IMG/VR virus record: IMGVR_UViG_3300007516_000106
Location: 1-27,603 of that record
DNA length: 27,603 nucleotides
Direction: 5' to 3' (one strand)
Source of the DNA: a virus
The notes below the pieces were generated by a model. The model was not told where the DNA came from, did not search any database, and saw nothing but the letters and a program-made list of their open reading frames with translations. Of the stretch, positions 4,271 to 21,525 are shown in pieces. The position numbers were made by a program, and so were the translations under genes. Position 1 is the stretch's first letter, and each line of letters begins with the position of its first letter.

Positions 4271-7200
4271 ATGGCAACTGGCCTCAATATCGGTAATAGA
4301 AGCGCAAGGATGGGGGGACTGAGTTCCCAAGCTCGTCCTTCGGCAGACACGAATTCGTCTCTCGCTAGAGACTCGCCTGCCGCTCAATCGACTGGTGAAT
4401 CTACGGTGGTTTTTGTTGCACCGCCAATTATCCAGTTACCGCCAGCCAATAACAGGCGTTATACAGAAGACACTTTACAAATAAGTAATTTCTCCGCCCT
4501 CAACTCCAGCTACATGGACCAAGCCGGAATTTCTACCATACGACCAGAAATCGTTGCAATCGTTGATTTCGAGCCCATCTACCAAGTCCAAACTGTAAAT
4601 CCTACAATAGTTGGAAAGCTTTTAGATATTCAGTTACAAGCTCGCGCACTCAAAGAAGAGAATCTTTCAACTATCCTTCAAAGGATCAGAGGGAACCCCG
4701 CTGCGAGAGAAGCATTCCAAAGCTTGGAGGCGAATTTTACAAACGAACTTCCAGCTACACAATCGCGACTTAATCTTATTTTTCAAGCAATCGCAGAACT
4801 TGCGAATGCCAGAAGTGCTTTTGATATCAAAGATACTGCAATCGCGACCAATCGATTTTTGTCTGTCGCTGATTTATTCATGAACAAATTGAATTTTTCT
4901 CGTCAAGGATTTAGAAATTTCCCTGACACTAAAATTTTAGAACAATTACTTCATGAATTATTTATAGCAACTGCACATTATCCAACATCTTTGGTCGGTA
5001 ATTTACAATATGCATATCAAAATGATTTGAGTCCTACGGTTTTAAATAAAGTCGCGAATGACCTTACGAGCTTTTCGGTGAACGTTAAAGTCTTTCGTTC
5101 GGAATTGGTGCCTTTTAACGCAGCGAACCCTGTTAAATTTGACACGTTAATGGATACGCTTCCGCGTGATCCTGATGAGAAAATCAAATTTCTAACTCTT
5201 CTTTTGTCTAAAGAACTGAGAGTTTCTAAGGGACTTGGTACGCCTGCCATTGCCGCGAGATTGGCAACTCAATTTGATTGTGGTGACATGGGTGATCCAT
5301 TTAACAACATCGTTGGTTTGCCTGGGGCGACAATTTTCGACGTTCCTTCGGGTGCGAAATCTTTTTCGTCTGTTTTCATTGCTAACACTGCGGACAACAA
5401 TCGATTCATCCTTCCTTTTGAGGCCAAGTATATTGATGACCCTGTTTCGCACCGCCAATTTATTCCTGGGCCTTCTTATTTTGTGGATTCGTTGACGAAT
5501 AATATTTCAGCGCTCGGAGTCAACAACAGCCCTCTAGTAGCTTACATCAGTGCTTTTTCAAACAAATTTAATGCAGTTCAACAGTCATACAATGATCTGC
5601 TAAATCTTAATGTAGATAGAAATTTGTTATTTGGAGATGACATATTCTCAAGATTGCTGCTAGCATTCTATTCCTCGTCTAGCGGTCTAACCACCGACAC
5701 GCCTTCTTTTGATTTGGATCAAGCTGTTATTGGCACGATTCTGAAAACAGCTAGCACTGATCGAGAATTAAAACTGCTTTTATTACAATTTTTTATTTTG
5801 ATTCTTGGCTGTGATGATTCAACTTCAGCACAACGATCACTATATGATCACATGGCTGCTAATGAGATTACTTTTTTGAGCAATCTGACGACGGTGCCAA
5901 CCCGTCCTGATGTCCCAGGTAGCACGCTGATGGCTCCTTTGCGCGCCACTGCTTTGGCTTCTTTGGCTTTTGAATTAGCCAGCAAAATCGAAGACAGGCT
6001 TTTCGCGCTGTATGGGCTCCCGGCATTGCAATCTAATATTGGTTTAGTCCAACTTCTCCCTGGCTTGAATTCCCAACCTGATAATAGCAGTGTAATTGGG
6101 ACAAGTAGGTCGATTGAAAATATCCAAAATCATTTATTGGGAACTAACGGATTCAACATCACCAGAGGCAACGTAAGAGATATCCTTGCTCGTTCGGTAT
6201 TTGATGGATCAGATTCTTCTACCAATGTTCTTCGCTCGATGGTTCATTTCATCTCAGATTTAACTAACAATGCTGGAGATGGAGCTTATGTACCCGATGG
6301 AACGTACCGAACAAGATTCAATTTTTTAAGCACAAGTAGTGTATGTTTGGTCGTTCTGGAAATATTTGCTAGCTTTGCTAGCAAATATTTCTTGGCAGAT
6401 TTTAATCCAAGCACTTATCCAAATACTTTACGTTTGACACTACAAACAACCCGCCAAACACGCATGAGGGGCGTTTATTGGTCTGTCGGTGAAATGGAGA
6501 GTAGCACATTCAATAGCGGAATACCAGCATCGTCACGGCCCATTGGGAACATTATGGCTAATTTTGACGAGAGAGCAGTAGGCGCCGCTCTTGATACTAA
6601 TCCTTTGCCCATTTTACAGCAATCGTTAAATTTAGTAAAAAGTGCAATTAAAGACGAGAACCAATTTATTAAAAACGTTTTATATGTGTTTCAAGCGATC
6701 AATACTCGTTTGATTCAAACACGCGACCAAATTTTGAATTTTTTCAATGCAAACAACATTTTTTTGCAAGCCATTTTTGCCGGGAATGTTATCAACAGTG
6801 AGCCGCAAGTAAGACTTGCGGCGTATTTATTTGATCAGTTTAATCAACGACTCACGCAGAATAGGGCTAGCAGCCATTATTCGCCGTTCCTTGATAATTT
6901 TTCGGGCTTATCATCTGGCGTTCAAAGTACCCTCAAAACGTTGTTGCAACAACCAACGTATAGAGAAAAAGATACTAACAGTGCGATCAAGCTTTTCACC
7001 GTTGGCATCCCGAATGGTTTCAGCAAGAATTTGCATCAAAGAATTGATTTAGGCGACGTAAATTACCACTCTTTTACTGAGCAGGCATCGACTTTGATTA
7101 AAATCAATTTGTATAAACGTAGTCTGGATTACCCAGATCTTTCTTTCAAGCCGAAAGAGTATATTTTTGACTTAGCTTTATTCGTTAAAAATATACCAAT

Positions 7201-7978
7201 AGCACCAAACGATTTTTCTTCCTTTGTTTACGACAACGTTCTTTTTTCAGATTTTTCCCTTTTGGGTGACATCAAAAGCGCAACGGCGCGCATTTTGTTA
7301 AGAAATAGGAAATACTCTTTTTTAACGGAAGCACAGAAAAATTCTCTTGCTCGTAACCATTTAGAAAATGATGTTTTGAATTTTTACACCCAAATTCTAA
7401 CGGGTATTGATATGTCAGAAAGTACATTTCTTACAGCCGATCCGCCACTGGAGATAGACGCTCAGTTTCAGCGTAATCTACAGCAATTTGTTAAAACATT
7501 TATTCAAAACTTCTCAACACAAACTTTGACTACCAATATTTTGCGCACACGAAATGCGGAAATTGGACGGTTGTTGTCGCAGTTGGATGCAAATTCCCTA
7601 ACGGAGAATTCACTGAGAGTGCAACCGGGGGCGCAGGGAACTGTAGAAGTAACACCTGAGTTGTTGGAATTCTTGCAATTATTTACTGGGAAGAGTTTTT
7701 TGGCTGGACATAAAACTACAAGTCAGCGTTGGCTCACGCCAAAATTATTCGACAGAGTATTTACGTTTAGCGCTGATATAGACGAGTTTGAGGTTGATTA
7801 TACATTGACAACTTCTTCTCAAAGCGGTCGTCAATTATTCGCAAGAACGGATTTTTTGCAAAAAATTGTCTATTTATCCAACGGAACATATATTATGAAA
7901 CGGAAACGTTCGAACGAAGTTCGTTTTGATGACTATTTTGTTGCGGTTGAGTTGATGGCCCCAGGAAGTTTCACATGA
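4271..7978 (+). CDS. Very large virion protein of unknown family (1235 aa)
   Basis: The longest coding region in the window, 1235 residues, preceded by an AAGGA ribosome binding site about 6 nt upstream. The first 50 residues are low-complexity and rich in Ser, Ala and Gly, followed by VFVAPPIIQLPP, a likely flexible arm. The rest is a mixed helical and beta protein rich in Asn, Phe, Leu, Ser and Thr, with no signal peptide, no obvious transmembrane helix and no enzymatic motif that I can see. Position among virion genes and the ATGA overlap with the next gene indicate a structural role, for example a baseplate, tail or neck component. It contains perfect inverted repeats at 6359-6391 and 6802-6822. 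I do not recognise the family. Confidence 0.7.
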   Translation: MATGLNIGNRSARMGGLSSQARPSADTNSSLARDSPAAQSTGESTVVFVAPPIIQLPPANNRRYTEDTLQISNFSALNSSYMDQAGISTIRPEIVAIVDFEPIYQVQTVNPTIVGKLLDIQLQARALKEENLSTILQRIRGNPAAREAFQSLEANFTNELPATQSRLNLIFQAIAELANARSAFDIKDTAIATNRFLSVADLFMNKLNFSRQGFRNFPDTKILEQLLHELFIATAHYPTSLVGNLQYAYQNDLSPTVLNKVANDLTSFSVNVKVFRSELVPFNAANPVKFDTLMDTLPRDPDEKIKFLTLLLSKELRVSKGLGTPAIAARLATQFDCGDMGDPFNNIVGLPGATIFDVPSGAKSFSSVFIANTADNNRFILPFEAKYIDDPVSHRQFIPGPSYFVDSLTNNISALGVNNSPLVAYISAFSNKFNAVQQSYNDLLNLNVDRNLLFGDDIFSRLLLAFYSSSSGLTTDTPSFDLDQAVIGTILKTASTDRELKLLLLQFFILILGCDDSTSAQRSLYDHMAANEITFLSNLTTVPTRPDVPGSTLMAPLRATALASLAFELASKIEDRLFALYGLPALQSNIGLVQLLPGLNSQPDNSSVIGTSRSIENIQNHLLGTNGFNITRGNVRDILARSVFDGSDSSTNVLRSMVHFISDLTNNAGDGAYVPDGTYRTRFNFLSTSSVCLVVLEIFASFASKYFLADFNPSTYPNTLRLTLQTTRQTRMRGVYWSVGEMESSTFNSGIPASSRPIGNIMANFDERAVGAALDTNPLPILQQSLNLVKSAIKDENQFIKNVLYVFQAINTRLIQTRDQILNFFNANNIFLQAIFAGNVINSEPQVRLAAYLFDQFNQRLTQNRASSHYSPFLDNFSGLSSGVQSTLKTLLQQPTYREKDTNSAIKLFTVGIPNGFSKNLHQRIDLGDVNYHSFTEQASTLIKINLYKRSLDYPDLSFKPKEYIFDLALFVKNIPIAPNDFSSFVYDNVLFSDFSLLGDIKSATARILLRNRKYSFLTEAQKNSLARNHLENDVLNFYTQILTGIDMSESTFLTADPPLEIDAQFQRNLQQFVKTFIQNFSTQTLTTNILRTRNAEIGRLLSQLDANSLTENSLRVQPGAQGTVEVTPELLEFLQLFTGKSFLAGHKTTSQRWLTPKLFDRVFTFSADIDEFEVDYTLTTSSQSGRQLFARTDFLQKIVYLSNGTYIMKRKRSNEVRFDDYFVAVELMAPGSFT
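6359..6391. repeat. 15-bp perfect inverted repeat with 3-nt loop inside a virion gene
   Basis: The left arm 6359-6373 (gaaatatttgctagc) is exactly complementary to 6377-6391, with loop TTT. One G-T wobble could add a pair outside. It encodes part of an FASFASK-like stretch of the 1235-residue protein. No T-run follows. Confidence 0.9.
6802..6822. repeat. 9-bp GC-rich inverted repeat inside a virion gene
   Basis: gccgcaagt (6802-6810) pairs exactly with acttgcggc (6814-6822) around an AAG loop. It is short but GC-rich and close to the longer repeat at 6359, in the same gene. Confidence 0.7.
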
Positions 7979-9798: not shown

Positions 9799-9888
9799 AA
9801 TGAAAAATTGAGTTATGAGTAGTTACTGATGTACTTTTAAAAAAGTAATACTAAAATAACCAACATTATTGAAGGATGGTAAAGGTTT
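9799..9888 (+). other. Intergenic region, largest gap in the structural block
   Basis: Ninety AT-rich bases between two virion genes. They hold a palindrome at 9832-9847 (tactttt, AA, aaaagta). Two purine-rich candidate ribosome binding sites precede the ATG at 9889: AAGGA at 9872-9876 and AAAGG at 9881-9885. The first is rather far and the second rather close. A promoter could sit here, but I see no convincing -35/-10 pair or T4-type late promoter. Confidence 0.5.
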
Positions 9889-10599
9889 ATGGGTTTTTTA
9901 ATTTCGGATAGTTCCAATATTATTTTAGATGCCGTTCTAACAGACACAGGAAGACAGTTCTTGGCACGAAATGATGGCAGTTTTAGCATTACAAAATTTG
10001 CTTTAGGCGACGACGAAGTTGATTATTCAATCATTCAAAAGTTTGGTCGTACTGTTGGTGCAGAAAAAATAGAAAAGAACACACCAGTTTTTGAAGGGTT
10101 GGCCAACCAGGGTCTAGCTCAAAAATTCAAACTGATCAGTGTTTCCAATCCATTACTCCTCACAATGCCGACGTTAACTCTTACCGGGCAAGAGGGAAGT
10201 GACACTGCTGCTTCTATTAATCTTGGGAGTATCACAGCCCGCAGAAAAACCCTGACTGTCTCACAGACTCTTCTTGAAGGATCTGTAGAAGTAGATCTCC
10301 GCGACCAATCTTTTATTGTTCAATTAAATGACATGTTTTTACAAGTCTCTGGTTCTCGTAGTGCAAGCACTGATGGTCAACAAAGAGCAACTTACACATT
10401 AATGAGAGACGCTAACACCACGGGGCAATTTGGTTCTAAACTCACTTTGGGGCTGGAAGTGAAATCGGTCACTGACACACAATTTGCTATTTATGGCGCC
10501 GCCCAGAATAAGCAACTAATCAAAACTTATGTAAAAGTAACTGGAATTAACTCCGGCGCTGTTCTTGAGTTCGAAATTAAAATTACTAAAGGCGCATAA
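9889..10599 (+). CDS. Virion/tail-associated protein with 'DAVLTDTGRQFL' domain
   Basis: A 236-residue protein with a strongly characteristic start: MGFLISDSSNIILDAVLTD, then TGRQFLARNDGSF and a 'FALGDDEVDY' turn. I recognise this start as recurring in large phages, and it is related in pattern to the start of the protein at 898-1842. The rest is beta-rich (TLTLTG, GSVEVDLRDQSFIVQLND, QFAIYGAAQNK), typical of an appendage or tail-tube-associated structural protein. No enzymatic motif is visible. It opens after the 90-nt gap and is followed 13 nt later by the 426-residue virion gene, which has its own AAGGA site, so the two are probably co-transcribed. Confidence 0.75.
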   Translation: MGFLISDSSNIILDAVLTDTGRQFLARNDGSFSITKFALGDDEVDYSIIQKFGRTVGAEKIEKNTPVFEGLANQGLAQKFKLISVSNPLLLTMPTLTLTGQEGSDTAASINLGSITARRKTLTVSQTLLEGSVEVDLRDQSFIVQLNDMFLQVSGSRSASTDGQQRATYTLMRDANTTGQFGSKLTLGLEVKSVTDTQFAIYGAAQNKQLIKTYVKVTGINSGAVLEFEIKITKGA

Positions 10600-10612: not shown

Positions 10613-11893
10613 ATGTCAACATATAAACAATTATCTGCTTCAGACAATCGTACTGCGCGCTCTGTTTTAAATCAGTTAGTAGATTTCCCGCAATCAATCA
10701 TCAGCGGAACGGTAACTCGTAGAAAATATCAAGTTTTCGTAACGGGCGGCGTTGGTGCTGGAGTAACTTCGTCTCTTTACCAAACGATTTATGACCAAGA
10801 CTACAGTCTTCAAACGGCTAACGCTCTTTTTGATATGACATTTGGATTACACAAAAATTCTCTAGCTGTTAGCGGATCAACTGCAAGCATAGATACTAGT
10901 GGAAAATATTTGTTTTTCTCGCAATCTGTCCAGATGAGAGAAAAAATGGACATTTATAAAACTTTCGCACAACGCCTTTTAGGCGATGCTGAGTCGCAAT
11001 TTGTGGCTACAACCTCCACTACAACAACCACAATTAACGAAGCTCTATTTATTAACTTTAAACGCTTGTTTCATCGCGATCAAATTAAAAGAGAATCTTT
11101 TGCCATGAAGTTCTTTCCGACTGGAAGCGAGAACTTCTCTGGTTCAGGTGGGTCGCTTGCGCGCTCTGGTACAGTGTTAAGCCCTTCAATTTTCACCGAT
11201 GTAGGAGCCGCTAGCAATAAAGAAATTTCGTTTGGTGGCCAAATTGGTACTATTGTCGATTCTTCAAATACAAATCGCCCTGTTGGTTTAATGTTTTATG
11301 ATCAAGGCGTCGCTGTTTTAGACATGCGTTCTTGTATTGATTTCAAACAAGGGCAAAATGGAATCGTAAGTGCAATGAGAGTAGCCACCCCCGCAACTCG
11401 AAATGGCTCTGCTTGGACAGGCGTTTCAACCACATTCCCAATCGCAGGCTCGCAAGAGTATTTCGAAGCTACGGGCACCGTAGCTGCTACTGAAAATGGC
11501 GGGGTTTTGTATCCATTCTCTAGATTCTTGGTTTCTGGATCGATTGATGATATTGTTGATCACATTGCTGTAAGCCGCTTCGGCGGTTCAGATCAAGCCA
11601 ATGACGCAACAATCGTTTTTCAAAATGCAACCAACATCAACTCAACATTGATTTTATGCCGCGCGGCGGCTGATGAGTTCAACTACTCTTCGAACCCAAC
11701 CTTCGTCGATGACGACAATAGAATTGTCGTCATCGACGAAGGCCAAGAAGAGTCTCAGCAATCCTTGACTTTTATCACGTCTGTCGGTCTTTACGATGCC
11801 AATAATAATTTACTTGCGGTTGCCAAGCTATCTCGGCCAGTTCAGAAAGATAGCACGAGAGATCTTCAGCTACAAGTTAGATTAGATTGGTAA
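10613..11893 (+). CDS. Virion structural protein (426 aa)
   Basis: A 426-residue protein with an AAGGA site at 10598-10602. The N-terminus (SASDNRTARSVLNQLVDFPQ, then SGTVTRRKYQVFVTGG) and the segment YQTIYDQDYSLQTANALFD look like a conserved virion protein of large myovirus-like phages. A Thr-rich stretch (TTSTTTTT, near 11010-11032) may be a linker. The last 42 residues (385-426) align without gaps to the last 42 residues of the LamG-like protein at 12219-14591 (shared pattern IT......D.N.N......L..P..K.........V.L). The gene contains the longest perfect inverted repeat in the window (11700-11742). Whether it is a tail, neck or fibre component is not clear. Confidence 0.75.
   Translation: MSTYKQLSASDNRTARSVLNQLVDFPQSIISGTVTRRKYQVFVTGGVGAGVTSSLYQTIYDQDYSLQTANALFDMTFGLHKNSLAVSGSTASIDTSGKYLFFSQSVQMREKMDIYKTFAQRLLGDAESQFVATTSTTTTTINEALFINFKRLFHRDQIKRESFAMKFFPTGSENFSGSGGSLARSGTVLSPSIFTDVGAASNKEISFGGQIGTIVDSSNTNRPVGLMFYDQGVAVLDMRSCIDFKQGQNGIVSAMRVATPATRNGSAWTGVSTTFPIAGSQEYFEATGTVAATENGGVLYPFSRFLVSGSIDDIVDHIAVSRFGGSDQANDATIVFQNATNINSTLILCRAAADEFNYSSNPTFVDDDNRIVVIDEGQEESQQSLTFITSVGLYDANNNLLAVAKLSRPVQKDSTRDLQLQVRLDW
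11467..11485. repeat. 8-bp perfect hairpin inside a virion gene
   Basis: agctacgg (11467-11474) pairs with ccgtagct (11478-11485) around a GCA loop, inside the 426-residue virion gene. It is a weaker member of the intragenic hairpins seen in this block. Confidence 0.6.
11700..11742. repeat. 20-bp perfect inverted repeat with 3-nt loop, plus outer stem
   Basis: Left arm 11700-11719 (ccttcgtcgatgacgacaat) is exactly complementary to right arm 11723-11742, with loop AGA. Seven further bases pair outside an internal loop: actcttc at 11685-11691 with gaagagt at 11747-11753. The structure lies about 150 bases before the stop of the 426-residue virion gene. No T-run follows it. Confidence 0.93.
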
Positions 11894-14610: not shown

Positions 14611-15057
14611 ATGGCTACTCGCAAAAAAACTACTATCACCGCTAAACCAAAAAAAAGACGCAGAAAAGGTAGGTATATTACTGGTGAACACATTAGCCCT
14701 AAATGCGCAGGGACGATAAAATATCGTTCTGGTTGGGAGCTTTCTGTTCTTAAGTCATTGGATTACGATGCAAGTGTGACTTCATATCTTTACGAAGCTT
14801 TTCACATCCCATATTTAGCAAATATCAGAACTGGTAAAATTAGAAAATATATTCCTGATTTTTATATCACATATGCTAATGGCCAGAAAAAAGTAGTTGA
14901 AGTAAAGCGAAAAGACAAAGTAACGGAACTGAAGACGGCCAAAAAATTACTAGCTGGCAAAGCTTGGTGCGACAAAAACAACATCATTTTTGAAGTTTGG
15001 ACAGATGCCACAATTGCCAGAATTCGCAAAGAGCTTGAAACTAAAGGCATCTTATGA
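14611..15057 (+). CDS. TnsA-like PD-(D/E)XK nuclease, phage head-completion type
   Basis: A 148-residue protein with a basic N-terminal arm (KPKKRRRKGR) and a restriction-endonuclease-like core. Visible residues fit the family: E43 in YRSGWE, D83 in YIPDF, and E97-V-K99 in VVEVKRK, followed by a helix with Lys residues and a final strand (NIIFEVWT). This arrangement is that of the TnsA N-terminal nuclease fold, which in phages also includes T4 gp4-type head-completion proteins that act on DNA at the filled head. Length is as expected for gp4-like proteins. A different role, such as DNA degradation or recombination, cannot be excluded. Its stop overlaps the ATG of the next gene (ATGA), so it is probably translated with the first of the ADP-ribosyltransferase-like paralogues. 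Confidence 0.8.
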   Translation: MATRKKTTITAKPKKRRRKGRYITGEHISPKCAGTIKYRSGWELSVLKSLDYDASVTSYLYEAFHIPYLANIRTGKIRKYIPDFYITYANGQKKVVEVKRKDKVTELKTAKKLLAGKAWCDKNNIIFEVWTDATIARIRKELETKGIL

Positions 15058-16160
15058 AAACACAATTAAAATCTTACATATCTTTAGTTATAGAAAATCG
15101 ATTAAACAAAGATAGTAGCGATAATTTTCGGCAGGTAAAATGGTTTGAAAATCTTGGAAAATACATCAAAGACGCGCCTCCTTATTATTACGTTCATTTT
15201 AGTGATTTAAACAAAGTTGGCATTAATCCTCGCTACAATCACTCTACACCTTTCGGAATTTATGCTTGGGTATTGAACTCAAAATTTTTTGAAATTTTGC
15301 AATCGAACCCACAGAGATTTTTTGCCACGGATCGTCCTTGCGTACACATATTAGAGTCTAGCGTCGGAGACGAAGAGACTTTGTTTTTGGATCAAGTAGG
15401 CCCTGCTGAGATAAAGTTTTTGGTGGAATGGTTAAGAACAGAGGGAATGCAATATATTCCCAATTTTCCACCTTCTCTTGCTGGATTAGCTAACAAACCA
15501 GAGGAGCTTCTTCGAAGAATTGTAGTGCTAGCCAGAGAGGAAACGGCCAGATTAGCCACTTCCTACCCTTCTGGAAAACTTTATTGGGAAATTCTAGAGG
15601 TGTTTTGTAATAAAGATTACAAATTATGGCGCAAAATATTGATGCAACTAGGCTACCAAGGGGTTGTAGATATTTCTCCTGAGCACGGGATCATTTATCC
15701 TTCAGAGCCCATGCAGGCTGTTTATTTTTCCAAAAGTTTTCTAACACAAATTACCACGTTGCAAAATCCGTCTTCAAACGAGATGTGCGGCAAAGGAGAA
15801 GACCCGGTTGTTTCCACGATTGCCCATTTAGCACCGGAAGCTGGCGCCACGTTGGAACCAAAATTCATAGAAAAATATTGGCCTAAAATTATGGGCTCTA
15901 GTGAAAAAACAAAACAACACGTTTTAATTAGTTTATTGAAAACTGGTCGTTCTGAGTTTGAATCCAAAATTAGAGAACTACTCAAAAACGAACCCATGCT
16001 TTTGTATGTCCTGGCTGGGGTCATGCTTGGGCCTCAAAACAAATTAAACTCGCCAGAGTTTGTTGAGAAATTCTGGAATACCTACAAAGATTTAATGAAA
16101 TCTCGTCTTTTGGCAACTCAGCGGCAGATTCTACAAAATCATTTTAAAATCTCGGCTTGA
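15054..16160 (+). CDS. ADP-ribosyltransferase-like paralogue 1, candidate injected head protein
   Basis: A 368-residue protein related to those at 19186-20340 and 20359-21525. Shared landmarks are YYVHFSDLNKVGINP (H48), STPFGIYAW (Y70), and YQGVVD followed by GIIYPSEPMQAVYFS (E218, Q221). The order His - Tyr - Glu/Gln across three motifs fits the H-Y-(E/Q) class of ADP-ribosyltransferase folds; activity is inference. After about residue 230 the protein is helical, repeat-like (FIEKYWPKIMG and FVEKFWNTYKD) and divergent from its paralogues. The N-terminus MKTQLKSYISLVIENRL is an amphipathic helix with a possible cut after VIE, resembling capsid-targeting sequences of T4 internal proteins. Coupling to the TnsA-like nuclease gene is compatible with a head-associated role. 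It lacks the near-identical 83-bp start of the other two. Confidence 0.7.
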   Translation: MKTQLKSYISLVIENRLNKDSSDNFRQVKWFENLGKYIKDAPPYYYVHFSDLNKVGINPRYNHSTPFGIYAWVLNSKFFEILQSNPQRFFATDRPCVHILESSVGDEETLFLDQVGPAEIKFLVEWLRTEGMQYIPNFPPSLAGLANKPEELLRRIVVLAREETARLATSYPSGKLYWEILEVFCNKDYKLWRKILMQLGYQGVVDISPEHGIIYPSEPMQAVYFSKSFLTQITTLQNPSSNEMCGKGEDPVVSTIAHLAPEAGATLEPKFIEKYWPKIMGSSEKTKQHVLISLLKTGRSEFESKIRELLKNEPMLLYVLAGVMLGPQNKLNSPEFVEKFWNTYKDLMKSRLLATQRQILQNHFKISA

Positions 16161-16178
16161 TGATGCTACACCATTTGA

Positions 16179-18569
16179 ATGACTGTCCAATTAACGCCGA
16201 AATCTAACATCAAAGGACCAATTTGTAGCGACTACAAAGATATTAACAAAGTCGTTGCTTTCGAAAAAGCCGCGAGAGCGTATCGGGCAAAGACTGAGCA
16301 CTTCCAAATAAGCCATATTACTCAAAGCGTTTTTGGAACTTATGAGGTTATTTCGGGCATATCGTCTGGTCTGTATTTCGTTGACATTTTCAACAATAAA
16401 AAAAACCACGATACTTGCACTTGCAAGGATTTTTCTCAAAACCTACTCGGAACTTGTAAGCATTTGGAGGCAGTTTATTTGGCACTAAATGAATTAAAAC
16501 TATTAGTTGCATACAAAAACACACAGCCTATTGCAGATTATATCACAATTATTGATGGCAAAAATGTATTAATTGGAAAACATCAAAGCGTTAAAATTCA
16601 AAACGGAGAAATCGTTAAATACGATGAAAAAACTCTTAGGGCGTCAAGTGCTTCTGCGAGTTTATTAGAGAAAACCAAGGAAAGAAATGCTAATTTAGCT
16701 CGCAAAGCAAAAATAGAACGTTTGATAGCTGGCGATAAAATTAAAATTGATGTTTTGACAAAGCCGTTGTTTCCTTATCAGCAAGATGCAGTAAAATATA
16801 TGACGGCTTCTGGCAGATCCTTGTTGGCTTTGCGCATGGGCGGCGGAAAGACCGCGAGCGTTCTTGCGGTATGCGAAATTCTAAAAACGACCGATAAAAT
16901 CTTTCGTGTTTTATTGGTTGTTCCTGCTTCTCTTAAGCAGCAATGGGCAAACGAGATCAAAATATTTGTCGGCAGTAAATCTGAAATTGTGCATAAAGCC
17001 GAAGAACTTAAGCCCTTCAGCTCCAAGCCAACAAAAGATATCCAATACAAAATAGTAAATTACGAACTTTTACTACGCAACCCAGACTTAGCTTACAACA
17101 TTAACACAGATATTGTTATTTTGGACGAAGCTCAAAAAATAAAGAACTTCCGCTCAAAAACCGGCGAGATAATTCGTCGAATACCAAATAAATTCTTCTT
17201 TGCTTTGACAGGAACGCCAATTGAAAATCGTTTAGATGATCTTTATTCTATTATGCAACTAATTGACGAAGATGTTTTCGGTCCTTTGTGGAAATTCAAT
17301 TTTGATTTCCATTCTCAAACGGAAACTGGAAGAATTGATGGCTGCAAGCACTTGGATCTACTTAGAGAGCGGATTAAACCCGTCGTTTTTTCCAAGAATA
17401 GAGCGGAAATTTTAAGCCAACTTCCACCTTTAACAGAAGAGACGATTTATGTTCCTATGTCAGAGGCGCAGAGCGAAAGAGAAGAATTTTATCGAAAAGA
17501 GGCGGCGAAATTATTCGCAAAGGCTAGCGGCAAGGGTTTAACTCGTGGCGAACAACAAATCCTCGCGGGTTATCTGCTAAAAGCCCGCCAAGCTTGCAAC
17601 TCGTTAATGCTTTGTGAACCGGATAATCCAGATGCCACTAGTGATTCACCAAAATTGGACGAACTTCAAACGATTGTATCTGACGTGTGCATCACAGAAG
17701 GCAAGAAGCTTGTCGTTTTTTCGGAGTGGATAGAACAGCTTAACATCATCGCTGCTATGTTAAAAAACATTGGCATTGATTATGTGATGCTTCACGGAGG
17801 CATTCCTACCAAGAAAAGACCAGATATCATTGAGTCATTCAAAACCCAAAATCACAAAATGGTTTTTCTCTCAACGGATGCCGGGGGCATTGGGCTGAAT
17901 TTGCAATTCGCAAGTTATGTGGTCCACTTCGATCTTCCATGGAATCCTGCCAAGCTCGACCAACGCACTGCTAGAACCCATCGCATCGGACAAAAGAATA
18001 ATGTCTACGTTTATTATTTGTGCGCCGAGGAAGGCATCGAGAGGGGCATTAAAGATGTACTTGTTTCAAAACGTGAGGTTCGTACTGCAACTCTAGAGGC
18101 TGATAGCAAAATTCAAGAAGTTGAACTTCAAAGTTTTGTAGATTATTTGAAAGACAACACGGATATGTTTGCCATTCCAGCCATTGAACCAACCAAGGCC
18201 ACGATAGAACCCGAAGAGGTAAAAGTTACGCCGAAAGTTCGACAAATTATTCAAAAAATGAAAAAATTCAAAGTGCATCTTGATGAAAACAAATCAAAAG
18301 AAGCAATTCAGGAAGCTTTCGATATCATTTTGATGCTAATTTCATTTCTACAAAGTATGGATGCCTCTGACTACGATAGCGTTATTAAATTAATAACACG
18401 CAAACTCATGTCTAGTAATAATGTATATGTGAACGCTCACGGGGTTTTAGTTTCTCTTAGGCATTTCATGCAGCAAAAAAATGCTGCATCGGTTGGGCAA
18501 ATATACCTCCGAACAACTCTTCTAAGAGCACGCAGCACTATCGATTCTCTTTTGGGTCTGTTAAAATAA
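16179..18569 (+). CDS. SWIM-SNF2 family DNA-dependent ATPase/helicase
   Basis: A 796-residue superfamily 2 ATPase. A SWIM zinc finger lies at residues 80-95 (C80, C82, C93, H95 in CTCKD and GTCKH). The ATPase core follows: Q-motif region LFPYQQDAVKYM, Walker A RMGGGKT with K224 (usually DEMGLGKT in SNF2 proteins), motif II DEAQ at 316-319, motif III LTGTPIEN, then the second RecA-like lobe with VVFSEW, STDAGGIGLNLQ and the arginine-finger motif QRTARTHRIGQ at 595-605. The C-terminal 150 residues are helical and unrecognised. SNF2 proteins translocate on duplex DNA and remodel protein-DNA or branched-DNA structures; a role in phage replication, recombination or clearing proteins from DNA is inferred. 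No strong ribosome binding site precedes the ATG, 18 nt after the previous stop. Confidence 0.93.
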   Translation: MTVQLTPKSNIKGPICSDYKDINKVVAFEKAARAYRAKTEHFQISHITQSVFGTYEVISGISSGLYFVDIFNNKKNHDTCTCKDFSQNLLGTCKHLEAVYLALNELKLLVAYKNTQPIADYITIIDGKNVLIGKHQSVKIQNGEIVKYDEKTLRASSASASLLEKTKERNANLARKAKIERLIAGDKIKIDVLTKPLFPYQQDAVKYMTASGRSLLALRMGGGKTASVLAVCEILKTTDKIFRVLLVVPASLKQQWANEIKIFVGSKSEIVHKAEELKPFSSKPTKDIQYKIVNYELLLRNPDLAYNINTDIVILDEAQKIKNFRSKTGEIIRRIPNKFFFALTGTPIENRLDDLYSIMQLIDEDVFGPLWKFNFDFHSQTETGRIDGCKHLDLLRERIKPVVFSKNRAEILSQLPPLTEETIYVPMSEAQSEREEFYRKEAAKLFAKASGKGLTRGEQQILAGYLLKARQACNSLMLCEPDNPDATSDSPKLDELQTIVSDVCITEGKKLVVFSEWIEQLNIIAAMLKNIGIDYVMLHGGIPTKKRPDIIESFKTQNHKMVFLSTDAGGIGLNLQFASYVVHFDLPWNPAKLDQRTARTHRIGQKNNVYVYYLCAEEGIERGIKDVLVSKREVRTATLEADSKIQEVELQSFVDYLKDNTDMFAIPAIEPTKATIEPEEVKVTPKVRQIIQKMKKFKVHLDENKSKEAIQEAFDIILMLISFLQSMDASDYDSVIKLITRKLMSSNNVYVNAHGVLVSLRHFMQQKNAASVGQIYLRTTLLRARSTIDSLLGLLK

Positions 18570-18607
18570 CTTGGTTGTAAATTAGCTATATGTAGCAAAG
18601 GATTAAA

Positions 18608-19189
18608 ATGATAGATTGTGCGCTGGCTGCGGATATTTCCACAACACACGTTGGATATTGCCTACAAAACAAAGACACCGGAGAGACTCTTGCGATGTCT
18701 TCCATAAATCTCCCAAGTAAAGACTATACTGATATTTGGGAAAAAGTGGATGATGTTAAAATAAAAATGACCGAGCTTGCTTTGTTCTGGAAAATGGCCG
18801 GTTGGAATGTCGCATCCATTTATGTCGAAGAATCATTGAAAAATTTCAAGGCGGGCGCTAGCTCTGCTGATGTTATTGTGAAGTTGGCACAATTCAACGC
18901 GATGGTATCGTTTTTAATAAGAAATTTGTTTGGAATCAATCCTGTATTTCTCAATGTCAACACAGCAAGATCTAGGATTGGAATCAAAGTTTTGAAGAAA
19001 AAAGGCGTGAAAAACGACACCAAAAAACAAGTATTGGAGCAAGTGGCTGCCAAAGTTCAATGGAGTTGGCCGACCAAGGTATTAAAAAGCGGCCCCAACA
19101 AAGGTACGACAGCTTTTGAGGAAGAGGCTTATGACATGGCAGATTCCTGGGTTATCTGTAAGGCTGGATGTACTATTTATAGAGCATGA
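18608..19189 (+). CDS. RuvC-like Holliday-junction resolvase
   Basis: A 193-residue protein with the RNase H/RuvC pattern: AADISTTHVGYCL with D9, IYVEES with E74 and E75, and the C-terminal helix EEAYDMADSW with D176 and D179. Four acidic positions in this order match RuvC-type nucleases, which cut branched DNA with two metal ions. In phages such enzymes resolve recombination and replication intermediates before packaging, the job done by endonuclease VII in T4. Strand residues INPVFLNVNTAR and the basic stretch KVLKKKGVKNDTKKQ are typical for the family. A good AAAGGA site lies upstream. Its stop overlaps the ATG of the second ADP-ribosyltransferase-like paralogue (ATGA). It follows the SNF2 gene by 38 nt, suggesting one transcription unit for DNA remodelling and resolution. 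Confidence 0.85.
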   Translation: MIDCALAADISTTHVGYCLQNKDTGETLAMSSINLPSKDYTDIWEKVDDVKIKMTELALFWKMAGWNVASIYVEESLKNFKAGASSADVIVKLAQFNAMVSFLIRNLFGINPVFLNVNTARSRIGIKVLKKKGVKNDTKKQVLEQVAAKVQWSWPTKVLKSGPNKGTTAFEEEAYDMADSWVICKAGCTIYRA

Positions 19190-19265
19190 GCCAAAATCAA
19201 TTACAAAAATTTATTCTCCAAGAACTCAATCGCCATAAACGCGAAGGAGTTGTTTTGGAAGATCC
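19183..19265 (+). repeat. Direct repeat copy A, start of paralogue 2
   Basis: These 83 bases match 20356-20438 at 82 positions; the single difference is C at 19234 versus T at 20407. The repeat starts three bases before the ATG and ends at codon 27, after which the two genes diverge strongly. Confidence 0.95.
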
Positions 19266-20340
19266 AATAAAGTATATTGAAAAATTCATAGGCCCGGACT
19301 ATTTTTTACATTTCACAAACATCAACAAACTAGGGATTAACCCTCAATATCAGCATCACACGCCAGCGGGGATATACAGCTACCCTTTAGAGCAAAAAAT
19401 ATTTAATGAACTCGCGGAAGACAGAATTGATTATGCGAGTGATTATAAGTACCTTATTTTATTTCGCAAAATAACTGATGATAAAATTTATGATTTTGAA
19501 ATAGACGATATCACAGATGACGAACTTGAAAGAAAAATAATGGTCGCGCGTAATTTAATCAATTTTCATTATTTGGACGAAGGAGGCCGAAATGCGGTGA
19601 CTAATTTGCAAACGTTTTTTCAATTAGTTCAAAACAGTTCTTTACGACCTTTACAAAAAAGAAAAATTTTTTTAGCTTGCGAAATTGATGGTTTAATCGA
19701 TCGAGGTGAATCGTTTATAACAAATGACATCGCTGCCCAAGCGGTTTTTTTCAACATTTCAAAAATAGAAATTCAGCAAGTGATGAAAAATCCTTTATTA
19801 AAAGAAAAATTGTACCAAGCAATCGCCGACAACAGCGCACTCAGTTCAAATACAAGAAAAAATCTTCCGCAAAACATTAATGACAAAATTATTAACGATC
19901 CTTTTGCTGATGATTATCAGAAAGAAGCAAATTTCCGTTATGCTTCGGAACATGCTTTGGTTAAATTTATTCATTTTGAACCAAAAAATCATCTCTCAGG
20001 GGGTTTAAAATTAAAAGCTTTTGAACAACTTACATTAAGATTTCCTGAGAAAGCTATTCCCTATTTTTACCGCAGCAATCGAGAGTTTCGAATGACTCTT
20101 TATCGAAGAATTGATATTAAAATTCTTAATAAAGAGTTCAGTAAAATCATAGCTTTCGAAGATCTTAACTTGCTTTTAGTAGAGGCAGTCAATAGGGTTG
20201 ACAGTCAACTGCTGGATGAATTAGTGCCTCTGTTTCCAGAGTTAAAAGATAGAAACAGGTGGCAAGATTTATATTTTGCCCTAGAGGATAGAAAAGAAGG
20301 TGATGGTATTTTCATGGCAGAATTGCAAAAATTTAGATGA
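19186..20340 (+). CDS. ADP-ribosyltransferase-like paralogue 2, candidate injected head protein
   Basis: A 384-residue protein. The first 27 residues are nearly identical to those of the next gene (MSQNQLQKFILQELNR, then KREGVVLEDP). The helix resembles T4 internal-protein targeting peptides, and LQE at 11-13 fits the L-x-E cut site of T4-type prohead proteases. Family landmarks follow: FLHFTNINKLGINP (H42), HTPAGIYSYPL (Y64), the strand KYLILF, and IDGLIDRGESFITND followed by AQAVFFN (D181, Q185). The usual glutamate near the third motif is not evident here (NDIAAQ), so catalysis may be altered or lost. Beyond residue 190 it is helical and divergent. The ATG overlaps the RuvC-like stop by 4 nt and no separate binding site is clear, so it depends on coupling. 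Confidence 0.72.
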   Translation: MSQNQLQKFILQELNRHKREGVVLEDPIKYIEKFIGPDYFLHFTNINKLGINPQYQHHTPAGIYSYPLEQKIFNELAEDRIDYASDYKYLILFRKITDDKIYDFEIDDITDDELERKIMVARNLINFHYLDEGGRNAVTNLQTFFQLVQNSSLRPLQKRKIFLACEIDGLIDRGESFITNDIAAQAVFFNISKIEIQQVMKNPLLKEKLYQAIADNSALSSNTRKNLPQNINDKIINDPFADDYQKEANFRYASEHALVKFIHFEPKNHLSGGLKLKAFEQLTLRFPEKAIPYFYRSNREFRMTLYRRIDIKILNKEFSKIIAFEDLNLLLVEAVNRVDSQLLDELVPLFPELKDRNRWQDLYFALEDRKEGDGIFMAELQKFR

Positions 20341-20345
20341 TTTTC

Positions 20346-20350
20346 AGGAG
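20346..20350 (+). promoter_or_regulatory. Ribosome binding site fixing the start of paralogue 3
   Basis: AGGAG ends 8 nt before the ATG at 20359. A GTG at 20350 is in frame but overlaps this site, so the ATG, which also aligns with the start of the neighbouring paralogue, is the likely start. Confidence 0.75.
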
Positions 20351-20355
20351 TGTCA

Positions 20356-20438
20356 AGCATGAGCCAAAATCAATTACAAAAATTTATTCTCCAAGAACTC
20401 AATCGCTATAAACGCGAAGGAGTTGTTTTGGAAGATCC
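20356..20438 (+). repeat. Direct repeat copy B, start of paralogue 3
   Basis: Second copy of the 83-bp repeat, offset 1173 bp from copy A at 19183-19265, with one mismatch (T at 20407). Confidence 0.95.
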
Positions 20439-21525
20439 TTTTGAACAGATCAAAAAATGGATTAGCCCCACAACGTTTCTCCATTTCACAAACATCAACA
20501 AACTTGGGGTTAACCCACAGTACCATTGGAGTATTACTCCTGCCGGTGTTTATAGTTATCCGCTAAATGAGTCCGGTTACGAAGCTTTAATGAATGATGA
20601 CTTCTCTTTCGGAAGCGATTTTAAATACCTAATTCTTTTTTCAATAACAGAAACAAATCAAATTTTTGATCTGTCAGAAGATATTTCAGACGAAGATTAC
20701 GCAGCGAAAATTGATATCGTCCGTCAATTTCCCAATTTTATATTTAAAAATAATGATGTTTCGGGATACCCGAATACAAACATAAAAAAACTATATATTT
20801 TTGTCAACTCAAGTACATTGACTCCTTTCCAAAAAAGAAAAGCGTTTATGGCATGTGGCATTAATGGGTTTATAGACAGGGGCGAGTCGTTTATAACGAA
20901 TGATATTGAAGCCCAAGCGGTTTTTTTCAATCCAAAAATTATTTCTCAGCAACTCGTCATAAAAAATCCGTTGCTAAAAACAAAATTACACGATATTGTG
21001 GTGGGTGCTAGCCAAACATTGAGTAATACTGGGTTTGAAAACACTCCTCAGAATGTTGTTGATAAACTCCTGGCTGATCCTTATTCAAATGACAGAATGA
21101 AATCATATGCCATATCCCACGCTTCGTTTCAGGCAATAAACAAATTTATAACTCCGCAAATTGATTCCACATTTCGTAGGTCAGCCCTTTCTGCCATTGG
21201 CGAGAAATACCCCGAAAAAATTATTCTTTTTTTTGATTCACAAGATCTTAAAATAAGATGTGATGCATACAGATATGCCAAACAATCAATTGTTCATAAA
21301 AATTTAACTCATCTCCTTGCTAAAGAAAAACACATTGATGGATTTATTGTTTTAGCTGACCGAGCTTCGCAAGCCTTGGCTGAAAAATTTTTGCCTTATT
21401 TGGAACAATTTAAGCACGACTCAAAGTTTGAGACTCTCTACTTCTTGCTGAGACACAGAGACGAAAACGGAAACAAAAGCGGAACCTTCCAGACAGAACT
21501 TGAAAAATACCATAAATACATATAA
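20359..21525 (+). CDS. ADP-ribosyltransferase-like paralogue 3, candidate injected head protein
   Basis: A 388-residue protein from the ATG at 20359. It shares with its upstream neighbour the near-identical N-terminal 27 residues and the landmarks FLHFTNINKLGVNP (H42), TPAGVYSYPL (Y65), KYLILF, and FIDRGESFITNDIEAQAVFF (E184, Q186). Here an acidic residue precedes the Gln by two positions, unlike the neighbour. The C-terminal half is helical with Ala- and Phe-rich repeats (AISHASFQAINKF, EKYPEKIILFF) comparable to the neighbour's FPEKAIPYF, so the tandem pair arose by duplication. The ADP-ribosyltransferase-like fold and head-targeted delivery are inferences from motif order and N-terminus. 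An alternative is an adaptor or inhibitor that keeps the fold without activity. Confidence 0.75.
   Translation: MSQNQLQKFILQELNRYKREGVVLEDPFEQIKKWISPTTFLHFTNINKLGVNPQYHWSITPAGVYSYPLNESGYEALMNDDFSFGSDFKYLILFSITETNQIFDLSEDISDEDYAAKIDIVRQFPNFIFKNNDVSGYPNTNIKKLYIFVNSSTLTPFQKRKAFMACGINGFIDRGESFITNDIEAQAVFFNPKIISQQLVIKNPLLKTKLHDIVVGASQTLSNTGFENTPQNVVDKLLADPYSNDRMKSYAISHASFQAINKFITPQIDSTFRRSALSAIGEKYPEKIILFFDSQDLKIRCDAYRYAKQSIVHKNLTHLLAKEKHIDGFIVLADRASQALAEKFLPYLEQFKHDSKFETLYFLLRHRDENGNKSGTFQTELEKYHKYI

Follow-up and report, generated by a model that had tools for sequence, protein, structure and literature searches.

Probable head-packaged proteins with an ADP-ribosyltransferase-like fold and a conserved N-terminal peptide in T4-like phages

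Three related proteins, P1, P2 and P3, are probably head-packaged, tag-cleaved and injected cargo with an ADP-ribosyltransferase (ART) fold in a T4-like (Far-T4-type) phage. Their genes lie in a window of 27.6 kb, the whole stretch of DNA that was analysed, which is one complete virus record and a fragment of its phage genome (Table 1). Comparative evidence supported the earlier interpretation of these proteins as packed in the head and delivered into the host. We infer targeting, cleavage and injection, and catalysis is the least certain part. An N-terminal peptide of ∼13–14 residues would bring P1–P3 into the prohead core, like the T4 capsid-targeting sequence. A gp21-type (S77) protease would cut the peptide after the Glu of [LIV]xE, and the same protease would trim the major capsid protein (MCP) at LxE. 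The mature protein, consisting of the ART-fold domain and a variable helical C-terminal region, would remain in the head, be ejected with the DNA and act early on host molecules. Probably it would do so as an ADP-ribosyltransferase that depends on NAD, or as an enzyme that consumes NAD, and the helical region would select the target.

Table 1. P1–P3, their predicted parts and the genes that overlap them, in window positions. Z values are from VIA-align and lie below 8, the range in which the tool warns of common arrangements.
Feature	Position	Strand	Evidence
P1, ART-fold family protein, 368 aa	15054..16160	+	ORF confirmed
P1 putative capsid-targeting peptide MKTQLKSYISLVIE, predicted cut after E14	15054..15095	+	Glu conserved 51/59; model helix 2–17
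P1 ART-like domain, residues ∼36–245 (H48, Y70, D206, E218, Q221)	15159..15788	+	mostly pLDDT >90; Z 5.9 NatT, 5.8 ParT, 5.4 PARP1/tankyrase
P1 divergent helical C-terminal region, low confidence	15789..16157	+	pLDDT ∼50–68
P2, ART-fold family protein, 384 aa	19186..20340	+	ORF confirmed
P2 putative capsid-targeting peptide MSQNQLQKFILQE, predicted cut after E13	19186..19224	+	
P2 ART-like domain, residues ∼35–204	19288..19797	+	pLDDT mostly >90; Z 7.3 to 9k3a_B (154 aligned, 4.4 Å), Z 5.9 to MbcT
P2 C-terminal helical-repeat-like region, residues 205–384	19798..20337	+	HEAT/ARM-repeat resemblance, Z 6–7, common arrangement; moderate confidence
P3, P2 paralogue (43% identical), 388 aa from ATG	20359..21525	+	BLAST, start-site reading
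P3 putative capsid-targeting peptide, 13 residues identical to those of P2	20359..20397	+	77/78 nt match to P2, first 26 codons
P3 ART-like domain	20461..20973	+	homology to P2
Head-completion nuclease (T4 gp4-like), 4-nt overlap with P1	14611..15057	+	phrog_218 head closure E 2e-20; TnsA-like nuclease 5e-13
RuvC-like resolvase, 4-nt overlap with P2	18608..19189	+	phrog_159 E 9e-4, phrog_827 2e-3; orthologue in G009

The gene arrangement given in the preliminary description was confirmed: the nuclease gene overlaps P1 and the RuvC-like gene overlaps P2, by 4 nt each, and profiles matched the nuclease and RuvC-like assignments. The gene of an SNF2-type helicase that has a SWIM zinc finger at its N-terminus (16179–18569) sits between P1 and the RuvC-like gene. 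P1–P3 are interspersed among DNA-metabolism genes (SNF2 helicase, RuvC, primase), not capsid genes. The P3 ORF was called from a GTG (20350–21525), and this GTG lies within an apparent Shine-Dalgarno region. The true start is most likely the ATG at 20359, because AGGAG is found 8 nt upstream and the resulting N-terminus is P2-like (MSQNQLQKFILQE; longer stretch MSQNQLQKFILQELNR). The first 26 codons of P2 and P3 are identical at 77 of 78 nt vs. 43% protein identity over the length, a sign of recent duplication or gene conversion at the 5′ ends. Because of this near-identity in DNA, the tags of P2 and P3 are not independent evidence within the window. On the extension contig of the window phage (L007), the terminase large subunit is split by an intein with a LAGLIDADG domain (L007:1557–4559), and the same contig encodes an adenylosuccinate synthetase (6393–7598, E 4e-149), a thioredoxin-like protein (9856–10140) and a possible secreted metalloprotease (10789–11385).

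The N-terminal peptides had been described as ending in L/I-x-E, which is correct for P2 and P3 (LQE); P1 has V-I-E instead. The motif [LIV]xE was present in residues 2–20 of 72/93 family members; the corresponding counts were 214/658 for the remaining ORFs at these loci and 17/93 for windows inside the family proteins. A stricter form, [LIVF]xE[AKR]R, occurred in the same residues of 35/93 members and 2/658 other ORFs. [LIVMF]xE was found in residues 4–24 of 74 of 84 members, as in a T4-type peptide. In T4 Alt and IPI–III, a short N-terminal propeptide is likewise cut after L/I-x-E by gp21, an S77-family protease (just 7 residues are lost from Alt, and in IPIII a stretch of 10 is enough for targeting), and one propeptide is common to IPII and IPIII, as one is to P2 and P3 here (PMC9026906). 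The peptide Glu is conserved in 51/59 members, about as well as the core, while the remaining tag residues vary. This pattern argues against ART-fold proteins made and used within the infected cell (like T4 ModA/ModB), whose N-terminal helix would be an element of their own fold or a partner-binding element. We consider such intracellular use unlikely, even though the AlphaFold models of P1 and P2 render the peptide as a helix joined to the domain and the surrounding DNA-metabolism genes are in its favour.

A search for shared N-terminal peptides on other proteins, of the kind proposed earlier, came out in favour in relatives: common tags begin unrelated proteins in two related phages, G009 and G021. 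The tag patterns were chosen after viewing the sequences, so that the P values are descriptive: in G009, seven gene products carry [LIFM]E[NS]W[RKN] near their N-termini and the pattern is found at no internal position (P 2e-6), and in G021, R[KHFRM][VITK][VI][ILV][AS] begins 12 genes, again with no internal occurrence (P 2e-9). Examples from G009 are MKLIIENWRKYATQVDE on a family member and MKLIIENWRSFLEEAR on a different protein; five tagged G009 proteins were compared and showed no significant similarity beyond the tag (best E 0.02). The tagged proteins of G021 include an ART-PolyVal protein (PF18760, E 2e-25) and a NUDIX protein (4e-14), and a PARP-domain protein (5e-9) is encoded in the same cluster. 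Family members in G021 carry VEVSSR, VEISAR or VVLATR where others show [LIV]xE[AK]R, and their tags are similar to, not identical with, the MRK-type tag of the neighbours. Glu is replaced by Ala/Ser in G021 across a whole set of different proteins. Tag sharing of this kind fits the prediction for a genome-specific targeting peptide, not that for a structural helix of the ART domain; both the tagging of otherwise dissimilar proteins and the concerted replacement of Glu argue against intracellular use.

Two gene clusters with such tags were also recorded. In the 295-kb phage contig (L111, G021:120000–139000, and L139), at least 12 proteins from different families, among them ART-PolyVal, Nudix and unknown ones, have MRK[IV][VI]xA as their start; this is likely another kind of address tag, in which A/S would occupy the cut site. 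In G009, a tagged gene run (L155:1459–4354, with L152 and L154) starting (MKLI)[IM]E[NS]WRxxLxE appears to be a further effector cluster, with a DUF2441 protein among its products. The Glu had also been considered as a structural residue of the ART domain; this was rejected, since unrelated proteins share the tags.

A gp21-like protease was sought in the 50 family-bearing IMG/VR records (G001–G050). The T4 gp21-type protease (Pfam S77) was detected in 19/50 contigs by Pfam and, by protease alignment, additionally in G014 and G015 (21/50); a weak S77-like stretch in G021 (E 1.5e-4) comes on top of these. The protease profile also recovered T4 gp21 (E 4e-37) and the proteases of KVP40, Rhodothermus phage RM378 and a 735-kb uncultured phage, and the S78 protease profile had no match in the 50 contigs. 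No protease or capsid gene was found in the window or its 10-kb extension (a 99.8% identical contig), which ends before the capsid genes. The 190-kb record G009 is colinear with the window from 9889 to the window's end, and its protease lies ∼4 kb past the terminase. The expectation of a prohead protease was therefore borne out in relatives and not in the window phage itself, as far as its contigs reach. In the T4-type MCPs of family-bearing phages, LxE is invariant in the N-terminal region by alignment, and the other MCPs read have [LIV]xE. The gene order in G003 is protease, scaffold, MCP and family gene; the family gene abuts the protease in G015 and lies within a few genes of the protease/MCP in G008 and G022. 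That relatives can hold the family gene inside the protease-MCP cassette again speaks against intracellular use and for packaging of P1–P3 in the head. In L106 (4160–6517) and L102 (5933–7999), the S77 prohead protease is inside long ORFs (∼690–790 aa), probably scaffold fusions.

Tag type appears to correlate with protease type, although not cleanly, and we regard the correlation as suggestive. G007 has tags without LxE and neither S77 nor a T4-type MCP was detected, and G021 combines A/S tags with the weak S77-like stretch. G040 and G044 have LxE tags, yet no S77 was detected; both may be incomplete. The G007 contig (239 kb) carries four tandem family members starting [AS]-R-I-N (L112:11562–16827).

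We examined the fold with AlphaFold models of P1 (from 59 sequences) and P2 (from 52 sequences), whose N-terminal domains are mostly predicted at pLDDT >90. The nearest solved structures of P1 were the RES-type toxins NatT (Z 5.9, 4.0 Å over 124 residues), ParT (5.8) and MbcT (5.3) and PARP1/tankyrase (5.0–5.4), and those of P2 were 9k3a_B from the cyanophage A4 pre-ejectosome (Z 7.3, 4.4 Å over 154) and MbcT (5.9); no match of either protein exceeded Z 8, below which VIA-align warns of common arrangements. Named BFVD matches below 1e-3 for the two models include ART-PolyVal proteins. The ADP-ribosyltransferase-like fold proposed from the sequence thus agrees with structure prediction: the N-terminal domains of P1 and P2 are predicted to have the split beta-sheet ART fold, at fold level only and with modest scores (Z 5–8), a call that draws on the agreement of many ART entries rather than one strong match.

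The motif positions noted earlier were reproduced with P3 counted from ATG 20359 (HF[ST] at 48/42/42 and the Tyr of PxG[IV]Y at 70/64/65 in P1/P2/P3), and QAV[FY]F is at 221/185/186. In the P1 model, strands 45–50, 69–73 and 221–224 bear H48, Y70 and Q221, which is the arrangement of ART active sites. G56, P66, G68, Y70 and D206 are invariant across the 59 members, followed by Q221 (58/59) and E218 (56/59); E218, three residues before Q221, is absent in P2 and P3. The position of H48 is occupied by S in 24, H in 21, T in 10 and Q in 4 members (H replaced in 38). The H-Y-E (or R-S-E) residues of ARTs were thus not recovered as a set: H varies, and Q221 opens the last motif strand at the usual Glu position. 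On this basis the family is not assigned to the catalytically confirmed ARTs. Loss of this triad (H in 21/59, Q at the E position) would be expected if P1–P3 were packaged as catalytically dead ART-like proteins, structural or scaffold-associated inside the head, and served to assemble the head, pack the DNA or eject the genome instead of modifying the host. The pre-ejectosome protein among the fold matches and the copy number of one to four tandem genes are in line with such a role. The near-invariant G56, P66, G68, Y70, D206 and Q221 point instead to an active or ligand site that has been kept. In G021, genuine ART-PolyVal, PARP and Nudix cargo is encoded alongside the family, and the C-terminal halves of P1–P3 diverge fast, as effectors do. 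We judge the structural role quite unlikely and an NAD-dependent enzymatic activity plausible for the family.

The family was followed with a profile built from P1, P2 and P3 together, which was necessary to reach its wider membership. Scanning viral contigs with single proteins, or isolated phages by tblastn with P1 and P2, gave a near-identical contig only, or nothing significant, and BLAST tied P1–P3 to contigs L003–L006. A 10-sequence profile detected 70 IMG/VR loci, some on contigs of 239–561 kb, and matched 102 distinct ORFs; the family is also present in the 735-kb uncultured phage genome. Two proteins of RM378, the cultured member of the ‘Far-T4’ group (PMC4360716), matched the family profile: Rm378p059 (E 7e-24) and Rm378p039, whose gene adjoins the portal gene. 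By equal protein lengths, they would correspond to BFVD entries UPI000018F644 and UPI00000381CC, which are among the three best BFVD structure matches. The profile had no match in KVP40, T4, G, Atu_ph07, P-SSM2 or SCTP-2. A motif scan of 84,980 bacterial and archaeal genomes with a pattern demanding the HF variant gave no match, and a second scan of these genomes with a broader motif gave one, on an 11.9-kb MAG contig; by these two narrow patterns the family is apparently almost phage-restricted. Pfam, PHROGs and PDB sequence profiles on P1–P3 and the 59 members indicated no consistent or informative family, and the PF18760 (ART-PolyVal) profile at its cut-off matched neither P1–P3 nor any of the 59. 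Apart from these uninformative profile libraries nothing favours three unrelated ORFs with coincidental motifs, a reading refuted by the absence of the ordered pattern HF[ST], PxG[IV]Y, QAV[FY]F from 60,000 residue shuffles, by significant BLAST similarity among all of P1, P2 and P3, and by the ∼70 homologous viral loci.

P1–P3 may work by analogy like T4 Alt with its targeting peptide, and we do not place them in the Alt or ART-PolyVal families. Alt has ART activity; the P1–P3 family differs from Alt and IPI–III in its tags, its active-site residues and its multi-copy tandem sets. No Alt homology was detected by informative Pfam/PHROG matches or by the family profile in T4. ART-PolyVal proteins share with P1–P3 the ART-like fold, the phage-borne genes and a proposed virion packaging (PMC9503650); they are among the best structural matches in BFVD, and the PF18760 protein co-located with the family in G021 has the cluster's tag. 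P1–P3 would be stand-alone cargo proteins whose short tag looks removable, whereas ART-PolyVal domains are often fused to head proteins or part of polyvalent proteins. The RES-type toxins and PARP/tankyrase are among the nearest solved folds (VIA-align Z ∼5–5.9, within the range of common arrangements), but they are 3–16% identical to P1–P3, which have no toxin-antitoxin context and differ in their conserved residues. The ART-like region of the A4 pre-ejectosome protein (9k3a chain B, residues ∼1419–1614, found by structure comparison) ranks first among the solved matches (Foldseek E 1.2e-3; Z 7.3–7.9, again below 8); this protein is very large and comes from a different kind of phage. ORF26 of Phormidium phage Pf-WMP3 showed no detectable sequence similarity to the family.

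T4 Alt is a known head-packaged, injected ART, and similar proteins have been widely proposed for myoviruses, mostly from gene context. Head-packaged phage ARTs are an already published general idea (Iyer et al., 2022; PMC9503650). New here are the unnamed family, its conserved tag and the tags common to unrelated cargo. Shared tags provide a sequence test for the proteins that a large uncultured phage injects first, and the cultured phage RM378 makes the tag and injection idea testable. Effector targets may have diversified through the helical C-terminal regions, which vary while the ART core is common to the family. As a tentative extension, to which we give somewhat less than even chances, one N-terminal tag per genome, suited to the phage's own head-maturation protease, may label a whole set of injected effectors that are otherwise unrelated in large T4-like and jumbo phages. 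The residue at the cut would be E with S77 proteases and A or S in a lineage without a recognisable one, and the tags may spread between genes by recombination, as at the P2/P3 5′ ends. If this holds, sequence alone would reveal which proteins an uncultured phage injects.
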